Of a stretch of DNA of 64,000 nucleotides, positions 12,139 through 35,226 are shown piece after piece. The notes below the pieces were generated by a model. The model saw only the letters and a list, made by a program, of their open reading frames with translations. It ran no database searches and was not told where the DNA came from. The stretch comes from Phytopythium helicoides. Lineage: Eukaryota; Oomycota; Peronosporomycetes; Pythiales; Pythiaceae. The first letter of the stretch is position 1. Each line of letters opens with the position of its first letter. The position numbers and the translations under genes were made by a program. Where the stretch lies: NCBI GenBank assembly GCA_024867545.1, contig JANFNE010000025.1, forward strand, positions 310,001 through 374,000, in the 5' to 3' direction.

Positions 12139-12145
12139 GCCTTCC

Positions 12146-12914
12146 CTATTTTTTAAATTCCGTCTCGATAGTGTAGCCGTGGTAGTGATCAGCCACAGCT
12201 GTCTTGATCGCGCACTTGACACGATATTTACCCTCGCTTACTTTTGGTATCATCTCTTCGTGTGTCTCGATTTTTTGTGAAAAGCCGTGTGTCGTCCCAT
12301 ACTTGTGCAAAGTCTGAAGCCCCTCATCGCAAACTAATTCCAGGAGGTACAGGGTAGTTGGGATGAGTGTTCCCATCAGTTCATAAGCAGCGTGGAAGAT
12401 TCCTCGTGCAGTGAAAAACATTGTTTGTTTGCCCTGCCCCTCGTAGAGGAAATGTTGCCCTTCTACGAATCCCCGGGTTCTGGAAACCTGGGCAATTCGG
12501 AACTCGAACGCCTTTGCAACATCGACAACTCGAAACAAAATTTCGTCAAAAGTTTGGCGGCCACGAATCATGACATCTGTTGGGCAGCCCAGCACGTCGA
12601 CAAAAAGTCGTTTCACCTTCAGATCTTTCTGGGTTAAGTTGCGTTTTGGTCGAGTTATGGTTAAGTTTCGCAACTTCGGTTGCAACTGGTGATACCACGG
12701 GGGATCGTCCCACGTCAACATCGAGAGTAGCGACTTGCTACTGTCTCGCTCGGTGGGCGAGTACTGGGGCAACAGGAGCTCGATAGGCGGGTACTTGGTC
12801 GGCAGGGGCTCGGTCAGCAGCGGAGGGGCCTCGACAGATGCCCCGCTCAGCCGCCATTGGCTTGACGGAGACTGCGTGCTCGGCAAGGCGAGTGCCTTGA
12901 TCCGGAGCAGCCAT
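12146..12914 (-). CDS. Unrecognised protein X, single-copy form
   Basis: I do not recognise this family. The main frame ends at 12146, with a first in-frame ATG at 12721 (191 codons). An ATG at 12914 (MAAPDQGTRL) reaches it if one base in the CC at about 12893 is discounted, giving about 255 residues. The N-terminal third is Pro/Ser-rich. The rest holds VKRLFVDVLG, VVDVAKAFEFRIAQVSR, GQGKQTMFFTARGIFHAAYE and a C-terminal basic tail. The segment from VVDVAKAF to FTARGIFHAAY faintly recalls BRO-N/MSV199-type DNA-binding domains, by eye only. It lies 7 bp from the Tc1 relic on the same strand, so it may be transposon cargo or host sequence beside an insertion. Confidence 0.55.
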
Positions 12915-13004
12915 TGAGACTGCGCATAGGATCGTTAGCTCACATGAAACCGCCCGCCCGCGACAAAGCACCAACATACCTTCATCTTTCTTTCATACCT
13001 CCTT

Positions 13005-13321
13005 TGTGATGGGTTACACAGTACTTTGGCACGAGGAAGCGTGCAATGCAAGTTTGACTTGCTTTTAGTATAGGTTAAAAGATAACCAAATACACTTGCG
13101 CCGTTCAAGGCAAAAAGGAGACTGTATTTATGTATGCATTAAAGCGTTCTTGAAATGGGTGGTTCCTAAAACACACAATGCAAAACTACTTGGCTAAAGT
13201 ATGCAAGGCTCATGGGAGCCACTCAACCTCCGGCTCGTACTTAGCCGGAGGGCAATGGGTACACAACCCAGTGTAGCCATCGGCCGCACACATGGGTACG
13301 TACCCGTGTAACCCCGTTACA
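13005..13321. mobile_element. Solo LTR, copy 1
   Basis: A 317-bp element starting TGTGATGGGTTACAC and ending GTGTAACCCCGTTACA, so its ends are imperfect inverted repeats with TG...CA-type termini. It is flanked by the direct repeat TCCTT (13000-13004 and 13322-13326), as expected of a 5-bp target-site duplication. Internal hairpins include CCTCCGGCT/AGCCGGAGG at 13227-13251 and a near-palindrome around 13299. No coding sequence for an internal retroelement region is present, so LTR-LTR recombination is inferred. Confidence 0.7.
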
Positions 13322-13446
13322 TCCTTCCTGTCACATCTCCTTTCTGGTTCTGAACGGTTGCTTCGTTCGCGTGCTTCAACGTGTCGACATTTCGAACGCC
13401 ACAGTTGGGAGTTAGATTATGTCGACTATTTAAATGTTTTAAAAAT

Positions 13447-13551
13447 ATGTCGAAAATGATGGTCTTTTTTTGAAGCCCTGACGCTCCCATGTTTTCATAA
13501 AAAGGTCATCTATTTTTAGAAGGGTTTAAAAAAAGCCATCCTTTTCGACAT
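13447..13551. mobile_element. MITE-like 105-bp inverted-repeat element, copy 1
   Basis: The ends are long imperfect inverted repeats: left ATGTCGAAAATGATGGTC and right, read in reverse complement, ATGTCGAAAAGGATGGC. The similarity continues through a T7 tract to about 35 bp. Too short to code; it would fold into a hairpin. I could not confirm a target duplication, so assignment to a particular superfamily is open. Confidence 0.5.
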
Positions 13552-13559
13552 AACGTAAA

Positions 13560-13655
13560 ATGGCACGGGCTGGACCTGCACTCGCAGAGCTCGACGAGAC
13601 CATCGACGAGACCATCGACGAGACCATCAACGAGACCATCGACGTGATGATCTGA
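13560..13655 (+). CDS. Mini-ORF with DETI repeats, in frame with the truncated MYND gene (copy 1)
   Basis: A 31-codon ORF, MARAGPALAEL followed by DETI-DETI-DETI-NETI-DVMI. It is built from a 12-bp tandem repeat (GACGAGACCATC) at 13593-13640. It ends in TGA at 13653, and the next codon starts an uninterrupted reading frame through the MYND finger in the same phase. The ATG lies 9 bp after the MITE-like element. It could be a small peptide, an upstream ORF, or a replacement N-terminus blocked by one stop. Translation is unproven. Confidence 0.35.
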   Translation: MARAGPALAELDETIDETIDETINETIDVMI

Positions 13656-15053
13656 TCGAAGCGCTGCCTCGCGTGCGGAGCCAGCGGCGTCGCCAGCCGA
13701 TGCGGCGGCTGCCGACGCGTTTTCTTCTGCGATCGCGAGTGCCAGCGCCGCGCGTGGGCCGAGCACCGCGCCGAGTGTTTCAGGATACGAGCCGAGGCGC
13801 AGCAGGCGGAGGCTGTGAGGATACCTGACGCCGAGGAGGCTGCGGTTGGCGAGCAGCGAGAGCATGTTGAAGATGAGGACAAGCGCGAGGAGCAGGCTGA
13901 GATGGAGATGGAGACGGCTGTGCAAGGCGCGGAGAGCGGTGCTGCGGCGGCCGCACACAAGAAGAAGAGCAAGAGCAAGCACAAGCGCAAGAAGGCGCGC
14001 AGCAAGAGTCTGCACCTGCCCAGTGGTGCGGGGTGCCCGACTAGCGGTGGTGGGCAGCGAGGAGACGGCGACAGCTCGTTGGACGCAAAGAAGCGCCGCT
14101 CCGTGTCACTCGGCGGCAGGAAGCACGTCATGTGGGGACAGGTGCTCGCGAGAGAGTTTGAACGCTTTCCTGGAGGCGGCAGTGCGGTTCCGTACGACGG
14201 GACGTGGGCGCTGGGTCTTGGATCGCCTGTGGCCGACGTGACGCTCGGCAGCGTGCTTGAGGTGGAAGAACTCAAGAACGAGGAGCTCAAGCTGCGCGCC
14301 AAGGATCTGCCCAAGACGCAGCGTGCGCTTGTGCGCGAGGGCGAAACGCGGCAGTTCGACTATCGACGTGGTGTTGACAACCCGCTGTTTTCTCGACTGA
14401 CCGAGCGTGAGCGCAAGCAGCTCTTCATCGCGGAGAAGATGCCGTCGCCACTTCTTCTGGCGAAGTCTCCACCCAAGCATGAACACCAAAACCACAACCA
14501 TCACGGCCGCCGACGGAAGAACTCGGTGTCGGCATCGCCTGTGATCACGTCGATGAGTGCACCATTTGTACTTGACGATGCACCACTGGACTCGCCTGAT
14601 TTTGCTTGCGTCTCGGTCGAGCAGCTCCAGGAGTTTGCCAAAATCCGCGACTCGCGCGACGAGGAATGTGGCTGTTCGTGTGGCGACCTCGTCAAGAAGG
14701 TTGGCAAAATGCACGTCAAGAAGCTTGTCACATTTTTGCACGAGCGCGGCGTCGAGGACACGCAAGGGTTGGGGAAGCCGCAGTTAATGGCCCTGGCCAA
14801 GAAGGTCGCAGGCGAGGAGAAAAACTGCCAGACCCCTGGCAGCGACTGCGAGTGCGCTCGCAACGGCGTTCCGTGCCATTCGGACGTCTGTTTAGGTTGC
14901 GCTGGCGATTGCTACAACCCATTCAACTGCTACCAGTACAAAAAAGACGAGGTGCGCGCGTACCGCAAGCAGATGATCGCCGCTTGGAAAGCCCAGCACG
15001 ACGACTCGGAAACGCTCGGTGAAGCCTTGGGTCCAGCTGTCCAGGTCGCATGA
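13656..15053 (+). pseudogene. MYND protein gene, 5'-truncated copy 2
   Basis: The frame from SKRCLACGASG to the natural stop is open, with all eight MYND zinc ligands, the basic tract and the Cys-rich C-terminus present. The original start and first 17-18 codons were lost at the duplication breakpoint. The frame is headed by an in-frame TGA at 13653. The first internal ATG at 13815 would give a 412-residue protein without the MYND finger. Preserved reading frame suggests a recent event or residual use from an internal start. Confidence 0.75.
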
Positions 15054-15622
15054 GCGTAGCTGCAGTTTGGCGATAGCAGATTGTCTGCATGTGAATACAC
15101 GGTATGTGCATTCGCCACACTTTCCAAACGTCCATCAGAACTGTGATGTATAGGGTGTCAATGAGCTTCTGTGGTGGTGACATTGGTCATGCCACGCAAC
15201 GACACAAAGTGAGAGTTGTTCACTGTCAGCTCGTCCTTGAAGTGAACAAAACTTTCAAGCAAGAGCTATTAGTAATGTAAGCTACTTGCACTTACTCAGA
15301 ACGCTTGATTGCTTGTCCCGCACTCGGATGTAGTAAAAGCAGACCAGCAATCCAGTAATGACAAGTTTCACAGTTGATGTTCTTTTGTCACGGAGAGATT
15401 CTTGCTGACTTGGCTTTATGCATCAGTTTGCGACCGCTTTATTCTTCAAAACATTTGGGGCATAAGAGCAGCGGCTCATCGTCGTTCATCGCAACAGCTA
15501 CAGCGTGGCGTGTGTCAATGCTTCAGTGGGATGACGTGGAACATACCGGTGGGGTAAATGAAGCTACAAGAACCTCATCTCTCGTCGAGGTCGTCCAACA
15601 TCGCACGCATGCTTGCGAAGAA
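15054..15622. other. MYND 3' flank, copy 2
   Basis: Duplicated noncoding sequence corresponding to 7739-8307, with a few substitutions. No gene supported. Confidence 0.6.
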
Positions 15623-16678
15623 ATGGCGGCAGAATTCTCGTGTCTGACAAGGTCGCAGTAGTGAATCGAGAGGTCGGAGGCATCAGTGACGTCGAGCTGC
15701 GCACCAGCGGCTTCCTGGACGCGCGTTCATTGTGAACGATGCCAAGAGCGTGTTCGAAGAGTCCTGACGACTGGAATTTTACGCTGTGACTTGAGAAGGC
15801 TGTTGAAAAGGGGGACTTGAGGGTTGTGAAATGGCTTGTGGAGGAGTATTTGCATGGAGGTCTTGCAGTAGCTACATGCGAATTACTGGGAGCGCGTGGT
15901 GTGGGATCCATTGTCGGTGCTACAGGATTTTGTGGGGCATGCGCCAATTTGAAGACGCGTAAATGGGTGCATGACCACGTTGTGCCACTCGACCAAGTGG
16001 CAAAGGATACATTGATGGAGACTGGTGTCCGGAGGCAGCTCGTCAATAGAATGGAGTGGCTATTCTCTCTCAGTTTGCCATCATTGCAACCCTATTAGTA
16101 ATTCGACACAAAATCGCCACTATGAAGTCGTGCAATGGTTGCATCGCCGCATGGTAAGCGACGAGTCGTGGTTGAAGGATTCAAAGGACGAAAAGTTCAG
16201 GTATTTGATCCAAGAGGTGACGTGGGATGCCGACATTGCGACCGAGTTGCGAGCACAGAGCTCGACTCGCAAGGCTGTCAAAGCTATACAATGGGCGAAG
16301 TCTCCTGGCTGTTGCAGCATCTTCACAGACTACCAGTTCAGCTGGGTTACAATATTCATGCAACCCCAGGCAACAAAGTCGACATCACAATGCTTCATTC
16401 CAAGGATGGACAATCACATGTAAGTGTTGCCTGCTTGAGACAGGCATTTTGTCGGCATTTTGTCGTCATTTCGTCGTCAACATATCGAAATGATCGCACG
16501 GTTTGTGCGCGATTTCTCTGACTCTATCCCTGAGTTTATCGAGCAAAAAGCGATAGACGATCTTTTCCTACAAGGTGCAATCCACGAACTCGAACAGCTT
16601 GTAGGAAGCCTCGCGTCATATCTGAAACCCAGGTTTCAGTGTACTCTCGCATGGTACGCTTCAATCGTCGTAAGCTAG
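15623..16678 (+). pseudogene. Decayed ankyrin-repeat gene, copy 2
   Basis: Same relic as at 8308, but with an internal deletion: the sequence jumps from the CCCTATTAG near 16096 directly to the TTCGACACAAAATCGCC that is at about 9018 in copy 1. Fragments KWLVEEYLHGG and VVQWLHRRMVSDESWLKDS remain in different frames. Confidence 0.8.
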
Positions 16679-17151
16679 CATTTTCTCGCAAGTCAAGTTT
16701 CATGCTATCTTTTACCTGGACGGGAGTGTAAGTGGCGAACAAATAATATGAAAGTTGAGATTCACAAAGCTTGCTGCTGCTGCTGCTGCTACTGCTACGC
16801 AATGTTTCCGTGACTAATCCTATGCAGAACCTGCACGAGCGAAACATTCAAGTGAATGGCTAACCGTGAGGAGGTGGTTGAGGGGTAGAGAGCAAGTTTC
16901 TGGCTGCGTGAACACCAAAGAAACTCGCAGAGGTTCGAGCGTGTAGCTTTCTCGGGATCCTACAACGAGCTTCAAATTTGCCCATTCATCACCAAAGAAG
17001 CTCTGCTCGTAGAAACAATGAGACTAACTGGGATGGAAACGGAAATCATAAACCGGTTGTTCAAATCACTCACATGCGTCATGCAAAAAGACTGCCACAT
17101 CTGACAAAATCCCAGCCACGCCTACACAAACTCACACTCCTCATGCATACC

Positions 17152-18538
17152 CTACGGAAGCGAATCATCTGGGCGCTTGATAATGATCGTCTTGGTCTCG
17201 AGGTAAGCTTGCAGACCGGCCTCGCCCAGCTCACGGCCAATGCCCGAGTCCTTGAAACCACCGAACGGCGTCATCGTGTCAAACTTGTTGTAGCAGTTGA
17301 CATACACCGTGCCCGTACGCAGTCCATTGCAGATCTTGATCTGCGCCTCCAGGTTGTTGGTCACGAGACCAGCGCCAAGGCCGTAGTTCGAGTCGTTGGC
17401 ACGCTCAATGACCTCGTCAATGGTCTTGAACTTGAGGATCGTCATCACGGGACCGAAGATCTCCTCGCGAGCGATCGTCATATCATCCGTCACGTCCGCG
17501 AAGATCGTCGGCTCAATGTACCAGCCCTTCTTGCCCACGCGATGGCCACCCGTCACAAGGCGAGCTCCCTCCTTCTTGCCCTCCTCAATGTATCCGAGGA
17601 TCTTCTCGAACTGGGTCTCGTCGATCTGCGGACCCTGCTCCGTGTTGGGGTTGAACGGGTCGCCGACGCAGCGCTTGGCTGCAATCTCACCCGAGCGGCT
17701 CACGAACTCGTCGTAGATCCCCTCCTGCACGTACACACGCGAGCCAGCAATGCAGCACTGGCCCATGTTGAAGAACAGTCCGAGCTGCGACTGCGCAATG
17801 GCCAGGTCGATGTCGGCGTCGTTGAGGATGATGTTGGGTGACTTGCCGCCGAGCTCGAGCGTCACGCGCTTGAGGTTGCTCACGTGCGACGTGCGCATGA
17901 TCTGGTAGCCGACCTCGGTCGAGCCCGTGAAGGCGACCTTGTCGACCTTGGGATGCTGCGCCAAGTGGCGGCCAGCCGTGGCACCCATGCCAGGAACGAT
18001 GTTGACAACACCCTTGGGGAAGCCAGCCTCGACAATGAGCTCACCGAGACGCAGAGCCGTCAGCGGCGTCTGCTCGGCAGGCTTGAGCACGACCGTGTTG
18101 CCAGCAGCAAGAGCGGGGCCGAGCTTCCAGGCCGCCATGGCGAGCGGGAAGTTCCACGGGATGATCTGTCCGCAGACGCCCACGGGCTCCTTCTTGGTGT
18201 AGGCGAAGAAGGGCCCCGACACGGGGAGCGTGTTTCCCTGGATCTTGTCGGCCCAGCCAGCGTAGTACCGCAGCGTGCCGGTCACGAGGGCGATGTCGGC
18301 AGCCTTGGCGACCGCGCACGGCTTGCCGTTGTCGAGCGCCTCAAGCGCAGCCAGCTCATCTGCATTCTTCTCCACGAGGTCCGCGAGCTTGTAGATCAGG
18401 TGGCCACGAGCCGCGGGGTCCATGGTGCGCCACAGACCATGGTCGAAGGCTTCACGGGCCGCAGTCACGGCCAGATCGATGTCTCCCGTCGTGGCCTCGG
18501 CCACGTCGGCGATCTTCTCCTCCGTCGCGGGGTTGAAC
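17152..18538 (-). pseudogene. Aldehyde dehydrogenase, N-terminally truncated copy 2
   Basis: Frame open from FNPATEEK to the natural stop, with the nucleophilic Cys (NMGQCC), general-base Glu (LELGGK) and NAD-binding GSTEVG intact. Junction sequence adds a short in-frame leader (LTRHLDG) with no ATG, so a GTG at 18561 would be the first usable codon. Like copy 1 it ends at the common breakpoint. Probably not producing normal enzyme. Confidence 0.8.
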
Positions 18539-18887
18539 CCATCGAGATGGCGGGTCAACACCAGTTCAATAGCTGAAAACTGCGAGGCAGGCGATCTACC
18601 TTCGTACTACATCATTTTCAGCAAATGTTTCAGCTGCTGTTCGAATTCCTCTACGTTGATCAGTGCTGACAATAAAGATAGAACCGACAGGAATTTTTCG
18701 ATTTTGACGAATCAAAAAACGTTCTAGCTGATGACATTTGACCAATGGAATCATCGATTCGAGACGATTCAGCCAATACCGTTCATTTCTGAAGCCAACC
18801 CTGGAAGCCCCACACCAGAAAATTGGGTCGGCAATAAGTATAAGACCGCTAGGCCTCTAGCTCACATTTTCATCGTGTTTCATACGT

Positions 18888-19200
18888 TTAGTAGCTAGTC
18901 TTGCAACCACACATCTCCAGCACCTGTCCAATGCGTTTAGGTATCGACTTCACGAGTTTAATGAGCTCGTCTTGGTCGATTTTGGCCCACTCTAACTCGA
19001 TGGCAGTTTTCAGCTCTTGAATCGTCTGAAACTGGCGCCCGCAAGCGTAGACCCGCCTCACAAGGATGCTCCAGACATTCTCGATGGGGTTCAAGTCGGG
19101 AGACTTGGCCGGCAACGGTCGTAGCTAGATATTTTTCTCTTGTAGCCATGCATTGCTGTGCCTCGAGACATGACTCGACGCGTTATCTTGCATGAAGAGC
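18888..19200 (-). mobile_element. Tc1/mariner transposase relic, copy 2
   Basis: Duplicate of the relic at 11826 with the same in-frame stop and the SPDLNPIENVW box. Its 5' coding part (19138-19200, encoding MQDNASSHVSRHSNAWLQ) is also the first segment of the 455-bp array. Confidence 0.85.
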
Positions 19201-22200
19201 GCCTTCCCTATTTTTTAAATTCCGTCTCGATAGTGTAGCCGTGGTAGTGATCAGCCACAGCTATCTTGATCGCGCACTTGACACGATATTTACCCTCGCT
19301 TACTTTTGGTATCATCTCTTCGTGTGTCTCGATTTTTTGTGAAAAGCCGTGTGTCGTCCCATACTTGTGCAAAGTCTGAAGCCCCTCATCGCAAACTAAT
19401 TCCAGGAGGTACAGGGTAGTTGGGATGAGTGTTCCCATCAGTTCATAAGCAGCGTGGAAGATTCCTCGTGCAGTGAAAAACATTGTTTGTTTGCCCTGCC
19501 CCTCGTAGAGGAAATGTTGCCCTTCTACGAATCCCCGGGTTCTGGAAACCTGGGCAATTCGGAACTCGAACGCCATTGCAACATCGACAACATCTTGTAG
19601 CCATGCATTGCTGTGCCTCGAGACATGACTCGACGCGTTATCTTGCATGAAGAGCGCCTTCCCTATTTTTTAAATTCCGTCTCGATAGTGTAGCCGTGGT
19701 AGTGATCAGCCACAGCTATCTTGATCGCGCACTTGACACGATATTTACCCTCGCTTACTTTTGGTATCATCTCTTCGTGTGTCTCGATTTTTTGTGAAAA
19801 GCCGTGTGTCGTCCCATACTTGTGCAAAGTCTGAAGCCCCTCATCGCAAACTAATTCCAGGAGGTACAGGGTAGTTGGGATGAGTGTTCCCATCAGTTCA
19901 TAAGCAGCGTGGAAGATTCCTCGTGCAGTGAAAAACATTGTTTGTTTGCCCTGCCCCTCGTAGAGGAAATGTTGCCCTTCTACGAATCCCCGGGTTCTGG
20001 AAACCTGGGCAATTCGGAACTCGAACGCCATTGCAACATCGACAACATCTTGTAGCCATGCATTGCTGTGCCTCGAGACATGACTCGACGCGTTATCTTG
20101 CATGAAGAGCGCCTTCCCTATTTTTTAAATTCCGTCTCGATAGTGTAGCCGTGGTAGTGATCAGCCACAGCTATCTTGATCGCGCACTTGACACGATATT
20201 TACCCTCGCTTACTTTTGGTATCATCTCTTCGTGTGTCTCGATTTTTTGTGAAAAGCCGTGTGTCGTCCCATACTTGTGCAAAGTCTGAAGCCCCTCATC
20301 GCAAACTAATTCCAGGAGGTACAGGGTAGTTGGGATGAGTGTTCCCATCAGTTCATAAGCAGCGTGGAAGATTCCTCGTGCAGTGAAAAACATTGTTTGT
20401 TTGCCCTGCCCCTCGTAGAGGAAATGTTGCCCTTCTACGAATCCCCGGGTTCTGGAAACCTGGGCAATTCGGAACTCGAACGCCATTGCAACATCGACAA
20501 CATCTTGTAGCCATGCATTGCTGTGCCTCGAGACATGACTCGACGCGTTATCTTGCATGAAGAGCGCCTTCCCTATTTTTTAAATTCCGTCTCGATAGTG
20601 TAGCCGTGGTAGTGATCAGCCACAGCTATCTTGATCGCGCACTTGACACGATATTTACCCTCGCTTACTTTTGGTATCATCTCTTCGTGTGTCTCGATTT
20701 TTTGTGAAAAGCCGTGTGTCGTCCCATACTTGTGCAAAGTCTGAAGCCCCTCATCGCAAACTAATTCCAGGAGGTACAGGGTAGTTGGGATGAGTGTTCC
20801 CATCAGTTCATAAGCAGCGTGGAAGATTCCTCGTGCAGTGAAAAACATTGTTTGTTTGCCCTGCCCCTCGTAGAGGAAATGTTGCCCTTCTACGAATCCC
20901 CGGGTTCTGGAAACCTGGGCAATTCGGAACTCGAACGCCATTGCAACATCGACAACATCTTGTAGCCATGCATTGCTGTGCCTCGAGACATGACTCGACG
21001 CGTTATCTTGCATGAAGAGCGCCTTCCCTATTTTTTAAATTCCGTCTCGATAGTGTAGCCGTGGTAGTGATCAGCCACAGCTATCTTGATCGCGCACTTG
21101 ACACGATATTTACCCTCGCTTACTTTTGGTATCATCTCTTCGTGTGTCTCGATTTTTTGTGAAAAGCCGTGTGTCGTCCCATACTTGTGCAAAGTCTGAA
21201 GCCCCTCATCGCAAACTAATTCCAGGAGGTACAGGGTAGTTGGGATGAGTGTTCCCATCAGTTCATAAGCAGCGTGGAAGATTCCTCGTGCAGTGAAAAA
21301 CATTGTTTGTTTGCCCTGCCCCTCGTAGAGGAAATGTTGCCCTTCTACGAATCCCCGGGTTCTGGAAACCTGGGCAATTCGGAACTCGAACGCCATTGCA
21401 ACATCGACAACATCTTGTAGCCATGCATTGCTGTGCCTCGAGACATGACTCGACGCGTTATCTTGCATGAAGAGCGCCTTCCCTATTTTTTAAATTCCGT
21501 CTCGATAGTGTAGCCGTGGTAGTGATCAGCCACAGCTATCTTGATCGCGCACTTGACACGATATTTACCCTCGCTTACTTTTGGTATCATCTCTTCGTGT
21601 GTCTCGATTTTTTGTGAAAAGCCGTGTGTCGTCCCATACTTGTGCAAAGTCTGAAGCCCCTCATCGCAAACTAATTCCAGGAGGTACAGGGTAGTTGGGA
21701 TGAGTGTTCCCATCAGTTCATAAGCAGCGTGGAAGATTCCTCGTGCAGTGAAAAACATTGTTTGTTTGCCCTGCCCCTCGTAGAGGAAATGTTGCCCTTC
21801 TACGAATCCCCGGGTTCTGGAAACCTGGGCAATTCGGAACTCGAACGCCATTGCAACATCGACAACATCTTGTAGCCATGCATTGCTGTGCCTCGAGACA
21901 TGACTCGACGCGTTATCTTGCATGAAGAGCGCCTTCCCTATTTTTTAAATTCCGTCTCGATAGTGTAGCCGTGGTAGTGATCAGCCACAGCTATCTTGAT
22001 CGCGCACTTGACACGATATTTACCCTCGCTTACTTTTGGTATCATCTCTTCGTGTGTCTCGATTTTTTGTGAAAAGCCGTGTGTCGTCCCATACTTGTGC
22101 AAAGTCTGAAGCCCCTCATCGCAAACTAATTCCAGGAGGTACAGGGTAGTTGGGATGAGTGTTCCCATCAGTTCATAAGCAGCGTGGAAGATTCCTCGTG

Positions 22201-25200
22201 CAGTGAAAAACATTGTTTGTTTGCCCTGCCCCTCGTAGAGGAAATGTTGCCCTTCTACGAATCCCCGGGTTCTGGAAACCTGGGCAATTCGGAACTCGAA
22301 CGCCATTGCAACATCGACAACATCTTGTAGCCATGCATTGCTGTGCCTCGAGACATGACTCGACGCGTTATCTTGCATGAAGAGCGCCTTCCCTATTTTT
22401 TAAATTCCGTCTCGATAGTGTAGCCGTGGTAGTGATCAGCCACAGCTATCTTGATCGCGCACTTGACACGATATTTACCCTCGCTTACTTTTGGTATCAT
22501 CTCTTCGTGTGTCTCGATTTTTTGTGAAAAGCCGTGTGTCGTCCCATACTTGTGCAAAGTCTGAAGCCCCTCATCGCAAACTAATTCCAGGAGGTACAGG
22601 GTAGTTGGGATGAGTGTTCCCATCAGTTCATAAGCAGCGTGGAAGATTCCTCGTGCAGTGAAAAACATTGTTTGTTTGCCCTGCCCCTCGTAGAGGAAAT
22701 GTTGCCCTTCTACGAATCCCCGGGTTCTGGAAACCTGGGCAATTCGGAACTCGAACGCCATTGCAACATCGACAACATCTTGTAGCCATGCATTGCTGTG
22801 CCTCGAGACATGACTCGACGCGTTATCTTGCATGAAGAGCGCCTTCCCTATTTTTTAAATTCCGTCTCGATAGTGTAGCCGTGGTAGTGATCAGCCACAG
22901 CTATCTTGATCGCGCACTTGACACGATATTTACCCTCGCTTACTTTTGGTATCATCTCTTCGTGTGTCTCGATTTTTTGTGAAAAGCCGTGTGTCGTCCC
23001 ATACTTGTGCAAAGTCTGAAGCCCCTCATCGCAAACTAATTCCAGGAGGTACAGGGTAGTTGGGATGAGTGTTCCCATCAGTTCATAAGCAGCGTGGAAG
23101 ATTCCTCGTGCAGTGAAAAACATTGTTTGTTTGCCCTGCCCCTCGTAGAGGAAATGTTGCCCTTCTACGAATCCCCGGGTTCTGGAAACCTGGGCAATTC
23201 GGAACTCGAACGCCATTGCAACATCGACAACATCTTGTAGCCATGCATTGCTGTGCCTCGAGACATGACTCGACGCGTTATCTTGCATGAAGAGCGCCTT
23301 CCCTATTTTTTAAATTCCGTCTCGATAGTGTAGCCGTGGTAGTGATCAGCCACAGCTATCTTGATCGCGCACTTGACACGATATTTACCCTCGCTTACTT
23401 TTGGTATCATCTCTTCGTGTGTCTCGATTTTTTGTGAAAAGCCGTGTGTCGTCCCATACTTGTGCAAAGTCTGAAGCCCCTCATCGCAAACTAATTCCAG
23501 GAGGTACAGGGTAGTTGGGATGAGTGTTCCCATCAGTTCATAAGCAGCGTGGAAGATTCCTCGTGCAGTGAAAAACATTGTTTGTTTGCCCTGCCCCTCG
23601 TAGAGGAAATGTTGCCCTTCTACGAATCCCCGGGTTCTGGAAACCTGGGCAATTCGGAACTCGAACGCCATTGCAACATCGACAACATCTTGTAGCCATG
23701 CATTGCTGTGCCTCGAGACATGACTCGACGCGTTATCTTGCATGAAGAGCGCCTTCCCTATTTTTTAAATTCCGTCTCGATAGTGTAGCCGTGGTAGTGA
23801 TCAGCCACAGCTATCTTGATCGCGCACTTGACACGATATTTACCCTCGCTTACTTTTGGTATCATCTCTTCGTGTGTCTCGATTTTTTGTGAAAAGCCGT
23901 GTGTCGTCCCATACTTGTGCAAAGTCTGAAGCCCCTCATCGCAAACTAATTCCAGGAGGTACAGGGTAGTTGGGATGAGTGTTCCCATCAGTTCATAAGC
24001 AGCGTGGAAGATTCCTCGTGCAGTGAAAAACATTGTTTGTTTGCCCTGCCCCTCGTAGAGGAAATGTTGCCCTTCTACGAATCCCCGGGTTCTGGAAACC
24101 TGGGCAATTCGGAACTCGAACGCCATTGCAACATCGACAACATCTTGTAGCCATGCATTGCTGTGCCTCGAGACATGACTCGACGCGTTATCTTGCATGA
24201 AGAGCGCCTTCCCTATTTTTTAAATTCCGTCTCGATAGTGTAGCCGTGGTAGTGATCAGCCACAGCTATCTTGATCGCGCACTTGACACGATATTTACCC
24301 TCGCTTACTTTTGGTATCATCTCTTCGTGTGTCTCGATTTTTTGTGAAAAGCCGTGTGTCGTCCCATACTTGTGCAAAGTCTGAAGCCCCTCATCGCAAA
24401 CTAATTCCAGGAGGTACAGGGTAGTTGGGATGAGTGTTCCCATCAGTTCATAAGCAGCGTGGAAGATTCCTCGTGCAGTGAAAAACATTGTTTGTTTGCC
24501 CTGCCCCTCGTAGAGGAAATGTTGCCCTTCTACGAATCCCCGGGTTCTGGAAACCTGGGCAATTCGGAACTCGAACGCCATTGCAACATCGACAACATCT
24601 TGTAGCCATGCATTGCTGTGCCTCGAGACATGACTCGACGCGTTATCTTGCATGAAGAGCGCCTTCCCTATTTTTTAAATTCCGTCTCGATAGTGTAGCC
24701 GTGGTAGTGATCAGCCACAGCTATCTTGATCGCGCACTTGACACGATATTTACCCTCGCTTACTTTTGGTATCATCTCTTCGTGTGTCTCGATTTTTTGT
24801 GAAAAGCCGTGTGTCGTCCCATACTTGTGCAAAGTCTGAAGCCCCTCATCGCAAACTAATTCCAGGAGGTACAGGGTAGTTGGGATGAGTGTTCCCATCA
24901 GTTCATAAGCAGCGTGGAAGATTCCTCGTGCAGTGAAAAACATTGTTTGTTTGCCCTGCCCCTCGTAGAGGAAATGTTGCCCTTCTACGAATCCCCGGGT
25001 TCTGGAAACCTGGGCAATTCGGAACTCGAACGCCATTGCAACATCGACAACATCTTGTAGCCATGCATTGCTGTGCCTCGAGACATGACTCGACGCGTTA
25101 TCTTGCATGAAGAGCGCCTTCCCTATTTTTTAAATTCCGTCTCGATAGTGTAGCCGTGGTAGTGATCAGCCACAGCTATCTTGATCGCGCACTTGACACG

Positions 25201-27782
25201 ATATTTACCCTCGCTTACTTTTGGTATCATCTCTTCGTGTGTCTCGATTTTTTGTGAAAAGCCGTGTGTCGTCCCATACTTGTGCAAAGTCTGAAGCCCC
25301 TCATCGCAAACTAATTCCAGGAGGTACAGGGTAGTTGGGATGAGTGTTCCCATCAGTTCATAAGCAGCGTGGAAGATTCCTCGTGCAGTGAAAAACATTG
25401 TTTGTTTGCCCTGCCCCTCGTAGAGGAAATGTTGCCCTTCTACGAATCCCCGGGTTCTGGAAACCTGGGCAATTCGGAACTCGAACGCCATTGCAACATC
25501 GACAACATCTTGTAGCCATGCATTGCTGTGCCTCGAGACATGACTCGACGCGTTATCTTGCATGAAGAGCGCCTTCCCTATTTTTTAAATTCCGTCTCGA
25601 TAGTGTAGCCGTGGTAGTGATCAGCCACAGCTATCTTGATCGCGCACTTGACACGATATTTACCCTCGCTTACTTTTGGTATCATCTCTTCGTGTGTCTC
25701 GATTTTTTGTGAAAAGCCGTGTGTCGTCCCATACTTGTGCAAAGTCTGAAGCCCCTCATCGCAAACTAATTCCAGGAGGTACAGGGTAGTTGGGATGAGT
25801 GTTCCCATCAGTTCATAAGCAGCGTGGAAGATTCCTCGTGCAGTGAAAAACATTGTTTGTTTGCCCTGCCCCTCGTAGAGGAAATGTTGCCCTTCTACGA
25901 ATCCCCGGGTTCTGGAAACCTGGGCAATTCGGAACTCGAACGCCATTGCAACATCGACAACATCTTGTAGCCATGCATTGCTGTGCCTCGAGACATGACT
26001 CGACGCGTTATCTTGCATGAAGAGCGCCTTCCCTATTTTTTAAATTCCGTCTCGATAGTGTAGCCGTGGTAGTGATCAGCCACAGCTATCTTGATCGCGC
26101 ACTTGACACGATATTTACCCTCGCTTACTTTTGGTATCATCTCTTCGTGTGTCTCGATTTTTTGTGAAAAGCCGTGTGTCGTCCCATACTTGTGCAAAGT
26201 CTGAAGCCCCTCATCGCAAACTAATTCCAGGAGGTACAGGGTAGTTGGGATGAGTGTTCCCATCAGTTCATAAGCAGCGTGGAAGATTCCTCGTGCAGTG
26301 AAAAACATTGTTTGTTTGCCCTGCCCCTCGTAGAGGAAATGTTGCCCTTCTACGAATCCCCGGGTTCTGGAAACCTGGGCAATTCGGAACTCGAACGCCA
26401 TTGCAACATCGACAACATCTTGTAGCCATGCATTGCTGTGCCTCGAGACATGACTCGACGCGTTATCTTGCATGAAGAGCGCCTTCCCTATTTTTTAAAT
26501 TCCGTCTCGATAGTGTAGCCGTGGTAGTGATCAGCCACAGCTATCTTGATCGCGCACTTGACACGATATTTACCCTCGCTTACTTTTGGTATCATCTCTT
26601 CGTGTGTCTCGATTTTTTGTGAAAAGCCGTGTGTCGTCCCATACTTGTGCAAAGTCTGAAGCCCCTCATCGCAAACTAATTCCAGGAGGTACAGGGTAGT
26701 TGGGATGAGTGTTCCCATCAGTTCATAAGCAGCGTGGAAGATTCCTCGTGCAGTGAAAAACATTGTTTGTTTGCCCTGCCCCTCGTAGAGGAAATGTTGC
26801 CCTTCTACGAATCCCCGGGTTCTGGAAACCTGGGCAATTCGGAACTCGAACGCCATTGCAACATCGACAACATCTTGTAGCCATGCATTGCTGTGCCTCG
26901 AGACATGACTCGACGCGTTATCTTGCATGAAGAGCGCCTTCCCTATTTTTTAAATTCCGTCTCGATAGTGTAGCCGTGGTAGTGATCAGCCACAGCTATC
27001 TTGATCGCGCACTTGACACGATATTTACCCTCGCTTACTTTTGGTATCATCTCTTCGTGTGTCTCGATTTTTTGTGAAAAGCCGTGTGTCGTCCCATACT
27101 TGTGCAAAGTCTGAAGCCCCTCATCGCAAACTAATTCCAGGAGGTACAGGGTAGTTGGGATGAGTGTTCCCATCAGTTCATAAGCAGCGTGGAAGATTCC
27201 TCGTGCAGTGAAAAACATTGTTTGTTTGCCCTGCCCCTCGTAGAGGAAATGTTGCCCTTCTACGAATCCCCGGGTTCTGGAAACCTGGGCAATTCGGAAC
27301 TCGAACGCCATTGCAACATCGACAACATCTTGTAGCCATGCATTGCTGTGCCTCGAGACATGACTCGACGCGTTATCTTGCATGAAGAGCGCCTTCCCTA
27401 TTTTTTAAATTCCGTCTCGATAGTGTAGCCGTGGTAGTGATCAGCCACAGCTATCTTGATCGCGCACTTGACACGATATTTACCCTCGCTTACTTTTGGT
27501 ATCATCTCTTCGTGTGTCTCGATTTTTTGTGAAAAGCCGTGTGTCGTCCCATACTTGTGCAAAGTCTGAAGCCCCTCATCGCAAACTAATTCCAGGAGGT
27601 ACAGGGTAGTTGGGATGAGTGTTCCCATCAGTTCATAAGCAGCGTGGAAGATTCCTCGTGCAGTGAAAAACATTGTTTGTTTGCCCTGCCCCTCGTAGAG
27701 GAAATGTTGCCCTTCTACGAATCCCCGGGTTCTGGAAACCTGGGCAATTCGGAACTCGAACGCCATTGCAACATCGACAACA
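19138..27782 (-). repeat. 455-bp coding tandem array, 19 units
   Basis: Nineteen head-to-tail units of exactly 455 bp. Each joins about 63 bp of Tc1 transposase coding sequence to the 3' part of gene X. The junction reads ACATCGACAACATCTTGTAGCC: the left half matches X and the right half matches the Tc1 relic, with a one-base insert. The array starts at the copy-2 Tc1 relic and runs out into gene X at 27783. All 19 unit translations are identical, so the expansion is very recent, homogenised, or an assembly product. The corresponding first junction (about 12.1 kb) has no expansion. Confidence 0.95.
19208..19648 (-). CDS. Chimeric Tc1-X ORF, first of 19 identical copies
   Basis: A 146-codon ORF whose ATG and first 18 codons (MQDNASSHVSRHSNAWLQ) come from the transposase relic. 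It is fused in frame to gene X from DVVDVAMAFEF to the natural X stop. It differs from parental X by K to M in VDVAKAF and in losing everything upstream. The same ORF recurs every 455 bp at left coordinates 19208, 19663, 20118, 20573, 21028, 21483, 21938, 22393, 22848, 23303, 23758, 24213, 24668, 25123, 25578, 26033, 26488, 26943 and 27398. The stop of each is 14 nt from the ATG of the next on the coding strand. Function unknown; no promoter or signal peptide is evident in the unit. Confidence 0.6.
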   Translation of the reverse strand: MQDNASSHVSRHSNAWLQDVVDVAMAFEFRIAQVSRTRGFVEGQHFLYEGQGKQTMFFTARGIFHAAYELMGTLIPTTLYLLELVCDEGLQTLHKYGTTHGFSQKIETHEEMIPKVSEGKYRVKCAIKIAVADHYHGYTIETEFKK

Positions 27783-27852
27783 TCTTGTAGCCATGCATTG
27801 CTGTGCCTCGAGACATGACTCGACGCGTTATCTTGCATGAAGAGCGCCTTCC

Positions 27853-28626
27853 CTATTTTTTAAATTCCGTCTCGATAGTGTAGCCGTGGTAGTGATCAGC
27901 CACAGCTATCTTGATCGCGCACTTGACACGATATTTACCCTCGCTTACTTTTGGTATCATCTCTTCGTGTGTCTCGATTTTTTGTGAAAAGCCGTGTGTC
28001 GTCCCATACTTGTGCAAAGTCTGAAGCCCCTCATCGCAGACTAATTCCAGGAGGTACAGGGTAGTTGGGATGAGTGTTCCCATCAGTTCATAAGCAGCGT
28101 GGAAGATTCCTCGTGCAGTGAAAAACATTGTTTGTTTGCCCTGCCCCTCGTAGAGGAAATGTTGCCCTTCTACGAATCCCCGGGTTCTGGAAACCTGGGC
28201 AATTCGGAACTCGAACGCCTTTGCAACATCGACAACTCGAAACAAAATCTCGTCAAAAGTTTGGCGGCCAAGTATCATGACATCTGTTGGGTAGCCCAGC
28301 ACGTCGACAAAAAGTCGTTTCACCTTCAGATCTTTCTGGGTTACCGGCAGTTGCGTTTTGGTCGAGTTATGGTTAAGTTTCGCAACTTCGGTTGCAACTG
28401 GTGATACCACGGGGGATCGTCCCACGTCAACATCGAGAGTAGCGACTTGCTACTGTCTCGCTCGGTGGGCGAGTACTGGGGCAACAGGAGCTCGATAGGC
28501 GGGTACTTGGTCGGCAGGGGCTCGGTCAGCAGCGGAGGGGCCTCGACAGATGCCCCGCTCAGCCGCCATTGGCTTGACGGAGACTGCGTGCTCGGCAAGG
28601 CGAGTGCCTTGATCCGGAGCAGCCAT
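27853..28626 (-). pseudogene. Gene X, second copy, 5-bp insertion
   Basis: Last X in the array, with full-length upstream sequence. Compared with 12146-12914 it has five extra bases (CCGGC at 28344-28348), which split it into an N-terminal frame ending after RPKRN and a C-terminal frame of 190 codons at 27853-28425. It also differs at LGYPTDVMILG versus LGCPTDVMIRG. The 3' half is what the array amplified. Confidence 0.6.
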
Positions 28627-28716
28627 TGAGACTGCGCATAGGATCGTTAGCTCACATGAAACCGCCCGCCCGCGACAAAGCACCAACATACCTTCATCTT
28701 TCTTTCATACCTCCTT

Positions 28717-29033
28717 TGTGATGGGTTACACAGTACTTTGGCACGAGGAAGCGTGCAATGCAAGTTTGACTTGCTTTTAGTATAGGTTAAAAGATAACCA
28801 AATACACTTGCGCCGTTCAAGGCAAAAAGGAGACTGTATTTATGTATGCATTAAAGCGTTCTTGAAATGGGTGGTTCCTAAAACACACAATGCAAAACTA
28901 CTTGGCTAAAGTATGCAAGGCTCATGGGAGCCACTCAACCTCCGGCTCGTACTTAGCCGGAGGGCAATGGGTACACAACCCAGTGTAGCCATCGGCCGCA
29001 CACATGGGTACGTACCCGTGTAACCCCGTTACA
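28717..29033. mobile_element. Solo LTR, copy 2
   Basis: Duplicate of 13005-13321 at a constant offset of 15712 bp, with the same termini and the same TCCTT flanks. It was copied with the junction, not inserted independently. Confidence 0.7.
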
Positions 29034-29158
29034 TCCTTCCTGTCACATCTCCTTTCTGGTTCTGAACGGTTGCTTCGTTCGCGTGCTTCAACGTGTCGAC
29101 ATTTCGAACGCCACAGTTGGGAGTTAGATTATGTCGACTATTTAAATGTTTTAAAAAT

Positions 29159-29263
29159 ATGTCGAAAATGATGGTCTTTTTTTGAAGCCCTGACGCTCCC
29201 ATGTTTTCATAAAAAGGTCATCTATTTTTAGAAGGGTTTAAAAAAAGCCATCCTTTTCGACAT
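29159..29263. mobile_element. MITE-like inverted-repeat element, copy 2
   Basis: Duplicate of 13447-13551 with the same hairpin arms. Confidence 0.5.
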
Positions 29264-29271
29264 AACGTAAA

Positions 29272-29367
29272 ATGGCACGGGCTGGACCTGCACTCGCAGA
29301 GCTCGACGAGACCATCGACGAGACCATCGACGAGACCATCAACGAGACCATCGACGTGATGATCTGA
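29272..29367 (+). CDS. DETI-repeat mini-ORF, copy 2
   Basis: Same 31-codon ORF and same in-frame TGA, now at 29365-29367, immediately ahead of the third MYND frame. Confidence 0.35.
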   Translation: MARAGPALAELDETIDETIDETINETIDVMI

Positions 29368-30765
29368 TCGAAGCGCTGCCTCGCGTGCGGAGCCAGCGGC
29401 GTCGCCAGCCGATGCGGCGGCTGCCGACGCGTTTTCTTCTGCGATCGCGAGTGCCAGCGCCGCGCGTGGGCCGAGCACCGCGCCGAGTGTTTCAGGATAC
29501 GAGCCGAGGCGCAGCAGGCGGAGGCTGTGAGGATACCTGACGCCGAGGAGGCTGCGGTTGGCGAGCAGCGAGAGCATGTTGAAGATGAGGACAAGCGCGA
29601 GGAGCAGGCTGAGATGGAGATGGAGACGGCTGTGCAAGGCGCGGAGAGCGGTGCTGCGGCGGCCGCACACAAGAAGAAGAGCAAGAGCAAGCACAAGCGC
29701 AAGAAGGCGCGCAGCAAGAGTCTGCACCTGCCCAGTGGTGCGGGGTGCCCGACTAGCGGTGGTGGGCAGCGAGGAGACGGCGACAGCTCGTTGGACGCAA
29801 AGAAGCGCCGCTCCGTGTCACTCGGCGGCAGGAAGCACGTCATGTGGGGACAGGTGCTCGCGAGAGAGTTTGAACGCTTTCCTGGAGGCGGCAGTGCGGT
29901 TCCGTACGACGGGACGTGGGCGCTGGGTCTTGGATCGCCTGTGGCCGACGTGACGCTCGGCAGCGTGCTTGAGGTGGAAGAACTCAAGAACGAGGAGCTC
30001 AAGCTGCGCGCCAAGGATCTGCCCAAGACGCAGCGTGCGCTTGTGCGCGAGGGCGAAACGCGGCAGTTCGACTATCGACGTGGTGTTGACAACCCGCTGT
30101 TTTCCCGACTGACCGAACGTGAGCGCAAGCAGCTCTTCATCGCGGAGAAGATGCCGTCGCCACTTCTTCTGGCGAAGTCTCCACCCAAGCATGAACACCA
30201 AAACCACAACCATCACGGCCGCCGACGGAAGAACTCGGTGTCGGCATCGCCTGTGATCACGTCGATGAGTGCACCATTTGTACTTGACGATGCACCACTG
30301 GACTCGCCTGATTTTGCTTGCGTCTCGGTCGAGCAGCTCCAGGAGTTTGCCAAAATCCGCGACTCGCGCGACGAGGAATGTGGCTGTTCGTGTGGCGACC
30401 TCGTCAAGAAGGTTGGCAAAATGCACGTCAAGAAGCTCGTCACATTTTTGCACGAGCGCGGCGTCGAGGACACGCAAGGGTTGGGGAAGCCGCAGTTAAT
30501 GGCCCTGGCCAAGAAGGTCGCAGGCGAGGAGAAAAACTGCCAGACCACTGGCAGCGACTGCGAGTGCGCTCGCAACGGCGTTCCGTGCCATTCGGACGTC
30601 TGTTTAGGTTGCGCTGGCGATTGCTACAACCCATTCAACTGCTACCAGTACAAAAAAGACGAGGTGCGCGCGTACCGCAAGCAGATGATCGCCGCTTGGA
30701 AAGCCCAGCACGACGACTCGGAAACGCTCGGTGAAGCCTTGGGTCCAGCTGTCCAGGTCGCATGA
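29368..30765 (+). pseudogene. MYND protein gene, 5'-truncated copy 3
   Basis: Nearly identical to copy 2, with P to T in the Cys-rich region (CQTTGSDCEC). MYND ligands are present, the start is lost, and the first internal ATG is at 29527 (412 codons). Its upstream context is identical to copy 2. Confidence 0.75.
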
Positions 30766-33700
30766 GCGTAGCTGCAGTTTGGCGATAGCAGATTGTCTGC
30801 ATGTGAATACACGGTATGTGCATTCGCCACACTTTCCAAACGTCCATCAGAACTGTGATGTATAGGGTGTCAATGAGCTTCTGTGGTGGTGACATTGGTC
30901 ATGCCACGCAACGACACAAAGTGAGAGTTGTTCACTGTCAGCTCGTCCTTGAAGTGAACAAAACTTTCAAGCAAGAGCTATTAGTAATGTAAGCTACTTG
31001 CACTTACTCAGAACGCTTGATTGCTTGTCCCGCACTCGGATGTAGTAAAAGCAGACCAGCAATCCAGTAATGACAAGTTTCACAGTTGATGTTCTTTTGT
31101 CACGGAAAGATTCTTGCTGACTTGGCTTTATGCATCAGTTTGCGACCGCTTTATTCTTCAAAACATTTGGGGCATAAGAGCAGCGGCTCATCGTCGTTCA
31201 TCGCAGCAGCAGCTACAGCGTGGCGTGTGTCAATGCTTCAGTGGGATGACGTGGAACATACCGGTGGGGTAAATGAAGCTACAAGAACCTCATCTCTCGT
31301 CGAGGTCGTCCAACATCGCACGCATGCTTGCGAAGAAATGGCGGCAGAATTCTCGTGTCTGACAAGGTCGCAGTAGTGAATCGAGAGGTCGGAGGCATCA
31401 GTGACGTCGAGCTGCGCACCAGCGGCTTCCTGGACGCGCGTTCATTGTGAACGATGCCAAGAGCGTGTTCGAAGAGTCCTGACGACTGGAATTTTACGCT
31501 GTGACTTGAGAAGGCTGTTGAAAAGGGGGACTTGAGGGTTGTGAAATGCCTTGTGGAGGAGTATTTGCATGGAGGTCTTGCAGTAGCTACATGCGAATTA
31601 CTGGGAGCGCGTGGTGTGGGATCCATTGTCGGTGCTACAGGATTTTGTGGGGCATGCGCCAATTTGAAGACGCGTAAATGGGTGCATGACCACGTTGTGC
31701 CACTCGACCAAGTAGCAAAGGATACGTTGATGGAGACTGGTGTCCGGAGGCAGCTCGTCAATAGAATGGAGTGGCTATTCTCTCTCAGTTTGCCATCATT
31801 GCAACCCTATTAGTAATTCGACACAAAATCGCCACTATGAAGTCGTGCAATGGTTGCATCGCCGCATGGTAAGCGACGAGTCGTGGTTGAAGGATTCAAA
31901 GGACGAAAAGTTCAGGTATTTGATCCAAGAGGTGACGTGGGATGCCGACATTGCGACCGAGTTGCGAGCACAGAGCTCGACTCGCAAGGCTGTCAAAGCT
32001 ATACAATGGGCGAAGTCTCCTGGCTGTTGCACCATCTTCACAGACTACCAGTTCAGCTGGGTTACAATATTCATGCAACCCCAGGCAACAAAGTCGACAT
32101 CACAATGCTTCATTCCAAGGATGGACAATCACATGTAAGTGTTGCCTGCTTGAGACAGGCATTTTGTCGGCATTTTGTCGTCATTTCGTCGTCAACATAT
32201 CGAAATGATCTAACGGTTTGTGCGCGATTTCTCCGACTCTATCCCTGAGTTTATCGAGCAAAAAGCGATAGACGATCTTTTCCTACAAGGTGCAATCCAC
32301 GAACTCGAACAGCTTGTAGGAAGCCTCGCATCATATCTGAAACCCAGTTTTCAGTGTACTCTCGCATGGTACGCTTCAATCGTCGTAAGCTAGCATTTTC
32401 TCGCAAGTCAAGTTTCATGCTATCTTTTACCTGGACGGGAGGGAGTGTAAGTGGCGAACAAAGAATATGAAAGTTGAGATTCACAAAGCTTGCTGCTGCT
32501 GCTGCTGCTGCTACTGCTACGCAATGTTTCCGTGACTAATCCTATGCAGAACCTGCACGAGCGAAACATTCAAGTGAATGGCTAACCGTGAGGAGGTGGT
32601 TGAGGGGTAGAGAGCAAGTTTCTGGCTGCGTGAACGCCAAAGAAACTCGCAGAGGTTCGAGCGTGTAGCTTTCTCGGGATCCTACAACGAGCTTCAAATT
32701 TGCCCATTCGCCACCAAAGAAGCTCTGCTCGTAGAAACAATGAGACTAACTGGGATGGAAACGGAAATCATAAACCGGTTGTTCAAATCACTCACATGCG
32801 TCATGCAAAAAGACTGCCTGCCACATCTGACAAAATCCCAGCCACGCCTACACAAACTCACACTCCTCATGCATACCCTACGGAAGCGAATCATCTGGGC
32901 GCTTGATAATGATCGTCTTGGTCTCGAGGTAAGCTTGCAGACCGGCCTCGCCAAGCTCACGGCCAATGCCCGAGTCCTTGAAACCACCGAACGGCGTCAT
33001 CGTGTCAAACTTGTTGTAGCAGTTGACATACACCGTGCCCGTACGCAGTCCATTGCAGATCTTGATCTGCGCCTCCAGGTTGTTAGTCACGAGACCAGCG
33101 CCAAGACCGTAGTTCGAGTCGTTGGCACGCTCAATGACCTCGTCAATGGTCTTGAACTTGAGGATCGTCATCACGGGACCAAAGATCTCCTCGCGAGCGA
33201 TCGTCATATCATCCGTCACGTCCGCGAAGATCGTCGGCTCAATGTACCAGCCCTTCTTGCCCACGCGATGGCCACCCGTCACAAGGCGAGCTCCCTCCTT
33301 CTTGCCCTCCTCAATGTATCCGAGGATCTTCTCGAACTGGGTCTCGTCGATCTGCGGACCCTGCTCCGTGTTGGGGTTGAACGGGTCGCCGACGCAGCGC
33401 TTGGCTGCAATCTCACCCGAGCGGCTCACGAACTCGTCGTAGATGCCCTCCTGCACGTATACACGCGAACCAGCAATGCAGCACTGGCCCATGTTGAAGA
33501 ACAGTCCGAGCTGCGACTGCGCGATGGCCAGGTCGATGTCGGCGTCGTTGAGGATAATGTTGGGCGACTTGCCGCCGAGCTCGAGCGTCACGCGCTTGAG
33601 GTTGCTCACGTGTGACGTGCGCATGATCTGGTAGCCGACTTCGGTCGAGCCCGTGAAGGCGACCTTGTCGACCTTGGGATGCTGCGCCAAGTGGCGGCCA

Positions 33701-34264
33701 GCCGTGGCACCCATGCCAGGAACGATGTTGACAACACCCTTGGGGAAGCCAGCCTCGACAATGAGCTCACCGAGACGCAGAGCCGTCAGCGGCGTCTGCT
33801 CGGCAGGCTTGAGCACGACCGTGTTGCCAGCAGCAAGAGCGGGGCCGAGCTTCCAGGCCGCCATGGCGAGCGGGAAGTTCCACGGGATGATCTGTCCGCA
33901 GACGCCCACGGGCTCCTTCTTGGTGTAGGCGAAGAAGGGCCCCGACACGGGGAGCGTGTTTCCCTGGATCTTGTCGGCCCAGCCGGCGTAGTACCGCAGC
34001 GTGCCGGTCACGAGGGCGATGTCGGCAGCCTTGGCGACCGCGCACGGCTTGCCGTTGTCGAGCGCCTCAAGCGCAGCCAGCTCATCTGCATTCTTCTCCA
34101 CGAGGTCCGCGAGCTTGTAGATCAGGTGACCACGAGCCGCGGGGTCCATGGTGCGCCACAGACCATGGTCGAAGGCTTCACGGGCCGCAGTCACGGCCAG
34201 ATCGATGTCTCCCGTCGTGGCCTCGGCCACGTCGGCGATCTTCTCCTCCGTCGCGGGGTTGAAC
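29370..34264. repeat. Triplicated segment, copy 3
   Basis: Rightmost core. Beyond 34264 the ALDH gene continues into its genuine N-terminus, which identifies this as the original right end of the locus. Confidence 0.9.
31338..32393 (+). pseudogene. Decayed ankyrin-repeat gene, copy 3
   Basis: Same deletion form as copy 2, with further substitutions such as GATCTAACGG near 32208. No intact frame. Confidence 0.8.
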
Positions 34265-34347
34265 GTCTCGAACGTGCGGCCCGTGATCGACTGCACGAAC
34301 TCGTTGTTGATGAACAGCTTGGTCTGGTGCTTCTGGGCGAGCGCCAT
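32878..34347 (-). CDS. NAD-dependent aldehyde dehydrogenase, complete
   Basis: A 489-residue ALDH1/2-type enzyme oxidising aldehydes to acids with NAD+. Visible are PWNFPL (N157), GSTEVG (233-238, cofactor loop), LELGGK (E256, general base) and NMGQCC (C290, nucleophile); length is normal for the family. I chose the ATG at 34347 ([10 protein letters not shown]), which aligns with cytosolic family starts. The frame is open further to an ATG at 34494, adding 49 Ser/Leu/Pro-rich residues ([10 protein letters not shown]...) that could serve as a mitochondrial presequence. Only this copy retains the first 28 residues. Two truncated paralogues lie at 10073 and 17152. Confidence 0.92.
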
Positions 34348-35226
34348 CGCGGCTGGAGGTTGTGGGGGGAGGAGTAGAAGGGACTGGGGCTTGCTCGAGG
34401 CTTGGCAAAAGCAGGAATGAGCTCGAAGCGAAGGCTCCGCAGCAATAGTCCAAGCCAACTGCAAGTGCGTAGCTCTCGTCCAAGCCAACTGCAAGTGCGT
34501 AGCTCATGACCCCCCATTGCGTTCCACAATGCGAAGCCACTTGCAAGTTGAAGTTGGCGTGAACCGTGTCAAGCGGTGCCACTCCAGCTTGCGAAAACTC
34601 GTCACCGCAGGTAATCAGCGCCTGCAGGACTGGAAAAAGACCAGCAAACTTGGATAGTCTGGGATGGCGAGAGAGTGAGCGAGAGGAGAAGCACGTGCCG
34701 AGCGGCTGCTGTTTAACAGAACTCATCAGCAGCGACGCAAGTGCAACACCAACATGCGCGCAATGTAAACACGAGCGCTCCCGTGAACGCCGATGCGCGC
34801 ACACGTTGAGCCGAGTCATACCTCTATTACTACATAATATGCGCTAGAAAGATATCAATTTTGGACGAATATACAGCATATATAGCCTTCAATAACACAT
34901 AAGCGACATGGTTTACATGTTTTGCCAATCTGAAGCCAATCCTTCAACGTCGATCGGATTGGCCACAAATCCCACGAACGCATTTCTATTGGCTGAAAAC
35001 CGACATACCCATGACTCAGTTCGAGCCCCCCAGCGGGTCTGTCCTACCACTTCCACCTCAATACTCTTTTATAAAGGTCATCGAGCGTATTTTTTCTCAC
35101 AACGATCCGCCACTGAATGAACCAATATATAAAATGTAACAGGTATTCCAGCCGCCCCATGCCGGCGCGCGCTCGGATCGCATCTAATCCCGTGGCCACC
35201 AAGGACGAGCGCAGCCCGACCGCACG
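34348..35226. other. Divergent intergenic region, ALDH and CDV3-like gene
   Basis: About 880 bp. A 30-bp tandem repeat at 34448-34505 (GTCCAAGCCAACTGCAAGTG core) lies inside the possible ALDH N-terminal extension. AACCAATATATAAAATG near 35118 has CCAAT- and TATA-like elements about 100 bp before the CDV3-like start. Confidence 0.45.

Follow-up and report, generated by a model that had tools for sequence, protein, structure and literature searches.

Organization of the locus

The analyzed window is a stretch of 64,000 bases of Phytopythium helicoides DNA (C19:310001-374000, on a contig of 926,936 bases). It carries three tandem copies of a block with a MYND-domain gene and an aldehyde dehydrogenase (ALDH) gene, separated by two spacers. 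The features of the blocks and spacers are listed below in window coordinates, with the strand where one is assigned.

6355-11459: duplicated block copy 1, from the MYND-domain gene to the aldehyde dehydrogenase
12076-12529, minus strand: unamplified twin of the array unit in the neighbouring spacer, with two differences from unit 1, the same flanks and no added A
12146-12886, minus strand: 246-codon gene X ORF of the unamplified twin, starting with TTG
13658-18538: duplicated block copy 2, whose aldehyde dehydrogenase ORF has a shorter 5' part (469 vs. 538 codons)
18891-19214, minus strand: relic of a Tc1/mariner-like transposase (DDE_3) that contains an in-frame stop and whose upstream piece forms the left end of the unit
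19138-27782, minus strand: 19 letter-identical 455-bp units, head to tail (Tandem Repeats Finder, TRF, and in-phase comparison)
19208-19648, minus strand: 146-codon ORF of unit 1, a short Tc1-type DDE fragment fused to a gene X fragment
19592: single added A at the unit-unit junction, present in all 19 junctions, with no microhomology
27783-28236, minus strand: unit 20 (edge), 454 bp, with two internal substitutions relative to the others, running into unique gene X sequence on the right
27853-28425, minus strand: gene X piece, 190-codon ORF reaching from the unique flank into unit 20; further upstream, its frame departs from that of the single-copy twin
28717-29033: solo LTR in the array-bearing spacer, with a twin copy at 13005-13321
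29370-34264: duplicated block copy 3; its aldehyde dehydrogenase extends into unique sequence (538-codon ORF, 32878-34494)

The blocks have diverged by 0.7-1.8%, with pairwise identities of 98.73% (copies 1 and 2), 98.17% (1 and 3) and 99.32% (2 and 3). A MYND finger was matched in block copy 1; the scanned ORF of copy 3 starts further in and has no MYND match. The aldehyde dehydrogenase (32881-34494) shares 78-80% identity with its five best named matches, from Phytophthora and Globisporangium, and its top match is at 77% (120 of 7997 listed); the named matches suggest a host among the peronosporalean oomycetes in the broad sense.

The content of the two spacers is conserved except for the number of units. 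The spacer between copies 1 and 2 contains the transposase relic, one unit, gene X and a solo LTR, and the spacer between copies 2 and 3 has the same order with the array in the place of the unit. The arrangement of relic, single unit and gene X, named by the earlier note as evidence that would speak against an array, does exist, at the sister spacer (12076-12529) and not at the array locus. Flank identity is 97.66% to the left of the unit (11460-12075 vs. 18539-19137) and 99.65% to the right (12530-13657 vs. 28237-29369), and this uneven divergence suggests patchy conversion. Both solo LTRs have TG...CA ends and TCCTT on each side, as judged by eye. The query holding the LTR at 13005-13321 gave 44 matching rows in the genome, 40 of which are further LTR copies, several of them paired about 8.15 kb apart. 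Elsewhere in the window lies an inverted duplication (55768-60945) whose arms, about 2.5 kb long and 94% identical, each carry a 210-codon pectate lyase ORF (57080-57712, plus strand, and 59027-59659, minus strand).

Structure and extent of the array

TRF reports a period of 455, 20.0 copies and a 99% match at 19138-28236. Units 1-19 show no differences when compared in phase, which confirms the nineteen exact head-to-tail units described earlier from the sequence; the extent proposed then (19138-27782) holds for the exact units, while the whole array comprises 20 units and extends to 28236. Nineteen exact copies of 455 bp cannot be chance. Unit 20, when read as 455 bases, differs at three unit positions (257, 438 and 455), of which 455 is the array end. 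The G at position 257 is private to unit 20. At position 438, which is 17 bp from the joint, unit 20 and the unamplified twin have T and units 1-19 have A. The array is located in the middle of the contig, its flanks continue uninterrupted, the window is free of any N, and the copy number is given as assembled.

We searched the organism's own 49.06-Mb, 100-contig assembly with the unit; all three first-look candidates were scored, and repeat counts from this search are lower bounds. The 22 matches comprise the 19 exact units, unit 20, the unamplified twin and an 83% partial match on contig C1, with no second array among the matches listed. The locus is thus homogeneous and head to tail, as expected of a satellite or tandem array (20 units, 19 identical), and it lacks the high copy number or the several loci of a satellite family, with one locus and about 20 copies among the matches listed; we therefore call it a newborn, low-copy array and not an established satellite family. 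The TRF sample of 144,511 bases, 64,000 of which are the window itself, lists seven arrays with a period of at least 80, the next largest with 8.5 copies of 120 bp, and is little measure of how rare such arrays are in the genome.

Origin of the unit sequence

The unit lies across the breakpoint at which a dead Tc1/mariner-like transposase meets a fragment of the broken gene X family, and the chimeric nature of its ORF, proposed in the earlier note, is borne out. The 78-residue downstream piece of the relic (18891-19124) scores 34.0 bits against DDE_3, above the Pfam cut-off of 28.6; the 29-residue upstream piece (19128-19214) has no Pfam match. In both spacers an in-frame stop separates the two pieces, upstream of the DDE_3 piece. 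The transposase is incomplete, with this stop and no 5' part. The downstream piece has six matches in the genome, including a relative on contig C21 (53% identity) with a 345-codon open frame and three others with internal stops.

The 246-codon gene X ORF of the twin has 37 matching rows in the genome, 22 on the contig of the array and 15 elsewhere. Among 12 aligned gene X members, one passes the Pfam cut-off of 20 for T5orf172, a GIY-YIG nuclease family, with 20.3 bits (a margin of 0.3), three match the endonuclease family phrog_681 (best E-value 2.8e-4), and two match zf-BED (best E-value 6.2e-4). The gene X member in the window matches no Pfam or PHROG family. A search of the organism's own genome with PF10544 gave no matches, a PDB profile search with gene X returned only a ribosome-biogenesis protein (E-value 0.88), and a profile of nine gene X sequences found nothing at an E-value of 0.001 or below among the 7996 database proteins scored. 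A nuclease-like function of gene X may be taken only as a lead. A T5orf172 protein is included in the table of an account of giant-virus insertions in oomycetes (PMC8204020). We do not claim a viral origin of gene X; a viral-contig scan with one paralog gave 12 pattern stretches and no relative.

The gene X piece on contig C1 has a 10-nt deletion relative to the twin. A run of 42 C adjoins this piece (L009:4467-4508) and is a possible weak point of assembly or polishing. Two other contigs carry pairs of identical gene X relatives. The pair on C90 is inverted (L034:930-2210, minus strand, and L034:4694-5974, plus strand), with a 120-bp tandem repeat of 8.5 copies between its members (L034:3072-4128); the pair on C37 is direct (L035:614-1705 and L035:3256-4347, both plus strand).

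Junctions and age of the array

All 19 junctions read GACAAC-A-TCTTG. The A belongs to neither flank, and there is no microhomology on either side. The twin has the same junction flanks without the added A. A templated origin of this base was considered, and a single base is insufficient to show it. The T shared by unit 20 and the twin at position 438, together with the uniform junctions, is consistent with a single duplication through end joining, after which the left copy underwent homologous expansion.

Had the units dated from the block duplications, 29-55 changes would be expected in 19 x 455 bp (from the identities of copies 2 and 3 and copies 1 and 2), and none is seen; under a star-like expansion the number of changes per site is bounded at 3.5e-4 (95% upper limit). 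The expansion, or the last homogenization, is therefore much younger than the surrounding blocks, in agreement with the very recent amplification or strong homogenization suggested by the earlier note. Ongoing homogenization would give the same picture as a young expansion.

Coding capacity of the unit

The 19 ORFs of 146 codons recur every 455 bp (19208-19648 to 27398-27838), with 14 nt between each stop and the next ATG. The identical ORF in every exact unit and the 14-nt gaps agree with the first description, which had left the strand unstated; it is the minus strand. The array ORF continues the frame inherited from gene X. In an alignment made by eye, its start Met corresponds to the transposase residue two before the Asp of QDNASSH, an Asp which we take to be catalytic; the C21 relative reads QHDNASIH there. 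The start Met is therefore an internal codon and not a natural start. Both differences between unit 1 and the twin are amino acid replacements, K to M and T to I, and the T-to-A change creates a second in-frame Met in the array ORF.

A coding megasatellite has a unit length that is a multiple of three and repeats in frame within one gene. The unit described here has 455 = 3 x 151 + 2 bases and a stop in every copy. Because each unit shifts the frame, a capped message would be expected to offer a single ORF. The dN/dS between the twin and the C1 copy of gene X is 0.68 over 148 codons (bootstrap 0.41-1.23), not distinguishable from 1, and the bootstrap median for the 110 codons of the array-encoded part is 0.83 (0.43-1.76). 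A value near 0.7 does not exclude weak constraint. A Pfam scan of the 146 residues yielded no family at an E-value of 1 or below, and a protein database search, in which only three candidates shared words with the query, yielded no homolog at 10 or below.

A selected coding array, with one small chimeric protein per unit and the dose set by copy number, is what the open frame in 19 units and the second Met might suggest. The internal start (by eye), the inherited frame, the frame shift at each unit, a dN/dS not confidently below 1 and the lack of any homolog or family argue against it, and we consider it extremely improbable. Expression is formally compatible with the data; a selected protein gains no support from frame, dN/dS or homology. 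The terms coding megasatellite and source of an unknown small protein, both used in the earlier note, thus find no support here. The ORF arises incidentally from the gene X frame and is probably not a selected gene.

Comparison with known tandem arrays

The oomycete Phytophthora parasitica has TE-derived satellites. According to the account in PMC7290008, PpSat3 and PpSat4 have units of 294 and 420 bp and Gypsy and MuDR ancestry; their longest arrays have 136 and 82 copies, and each family is on two scaffolds, with totals of 191 and 150 copies. The same account describes a 337-bp satellite with one PpSat1 monomer in 333 identical copies. The Phytopythium array resembles PpSat3 and PpSat4 in being a TE-derived tandem array of an oomycete; as far as they are described there, it differs in its single locus, about 20 copies, Tc1-type and gene X ancestry, and the unamplified form in the next spacer. 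Satellites are reported to arise from TEs by partial duplication of the element, then unequal exchange or rolling circle (PMC12628747, PMC6947457). The array is similar in its initial duplication and expansion route. In contrast to the cases in those reports, its unit straddles a TE-to-gene breakpoint and its founding junction has one added base, not short flanking repeats.

Near-identical tandem copies of Avr1a and a segmental duplication of Avr3a were described in Phytophthora sojae, another oomycete, with units of 5.2 and 10.8 kb that hold whole genes (PMC2661136); the unit described here has only 455 bp and carries a fragment ORF. We found no published account of the present array, or of a 455-bp Phytophthora repeat, in the open-licence literature searched. 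Yeast megasatellites are tandem repeats with long units that are open and in frame inside a gene. They share with the array a long unit with an open frame, but the 455-bp unit has a stop in every copy.

Proposed origin and alternative explanations

The array is very probably a newborn, low-copy satellite derived from a TE and a gene, and not a family of working small genes. Its unit structure, its junctions, the unamplified twin and the lack of divergence are direct observations; we infer that it is nearly neutral. An older rearrangement would have set an internal piece of a Tc1/mariner-like transposase against the broken host-family gene X, in the spacer between tandem MYND-ALDH blocks. Of the two spacers, one would then have undergone a tandem duplication of 454 bp over the breakpoint by end joining, as suggested by the absence of microhomology and the one added A. 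The T-to-A change 17 bp from the joint may stem from the same repair. The growth of the dimer to about 20 units could be due to unequal exchange or to rolling-circle or template-switch copying, and it would be recent, since 19 units are without a difference. In principle, the twin might have arisen by contraction of an array and not represent the ancestral state; this is disfavoured because units of the age of the block duplication should have diverged.

Nineteen perfectly identical units are also what polishing to a consensus would produce in a repeat; one or few real units may have been inflated or over-homogenized by the assembler or polisher. A misassembled copy number is possible. Such an artefact seems unlikely, given that the array lies mid-contig with no N, the edge unit retains its two internal differences, and the same contig resolves a 6.5-kb stretch at 99.1% identity. 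It is unlikely that the array is spurious altogether, because the added-base junction is missing from the twin and needs at least one real duplication. Two further proposals concern effects of the array and are compatible with an origin as a newborn satellite. By analogy with P. parasitica, where PpSat satellites yield sense and antisense small RNAs in similar abundance (28-38 nt for PpSat1 and 28-29 nt for PpSat2; PMC7290008), transcription of both strands might silence the array and the relatives of gene X or of the Tc1-like element. We regard this as rather unlikely: outside the contig of the array, the sole DNA match among those listed is the 83% piece on C1, and an unusual RNA fold of the unit was rejected (z-scores of -0.85 and -0.20 on the two strands). 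An Rfam scan of the window gave no match at gathering scores. From its position and the gene orientations, the array could also have lengthened the spacer from which ALDH copy 2 and MYND copy 3 diverge, taking it from about 2.2 to 10.8 kb, and so altered the expression of both genes; these two flanking copies lack 5' sequence that is present in ALDH copy 3 or MYND copy 1, and the effect appears quite unlikely. A bolder proposal would make the array a new copy-number-variable small-RNA (or peptide) locus, built from fragments of a transposase and a nuclease-like gene and silencing or dosing against its source families, with the pre-expansion form 7 kb away; we give it a very small chance.

The newborn satellite remains the preferred explanation, and the array is best read as a small, young member of the kind of TE-derived tandem family reported in Phytophthora, distinguished by the unamplified form next door. 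The unamplified form, the founding junction and the expanded array are legible within 20 kb of one contig, a clean snapshot of the start of a satellite. With these three stages on one contig, models of array birth become directly testable, in the junction chemistry, in the first mutations and in the change of copy number between isolates.
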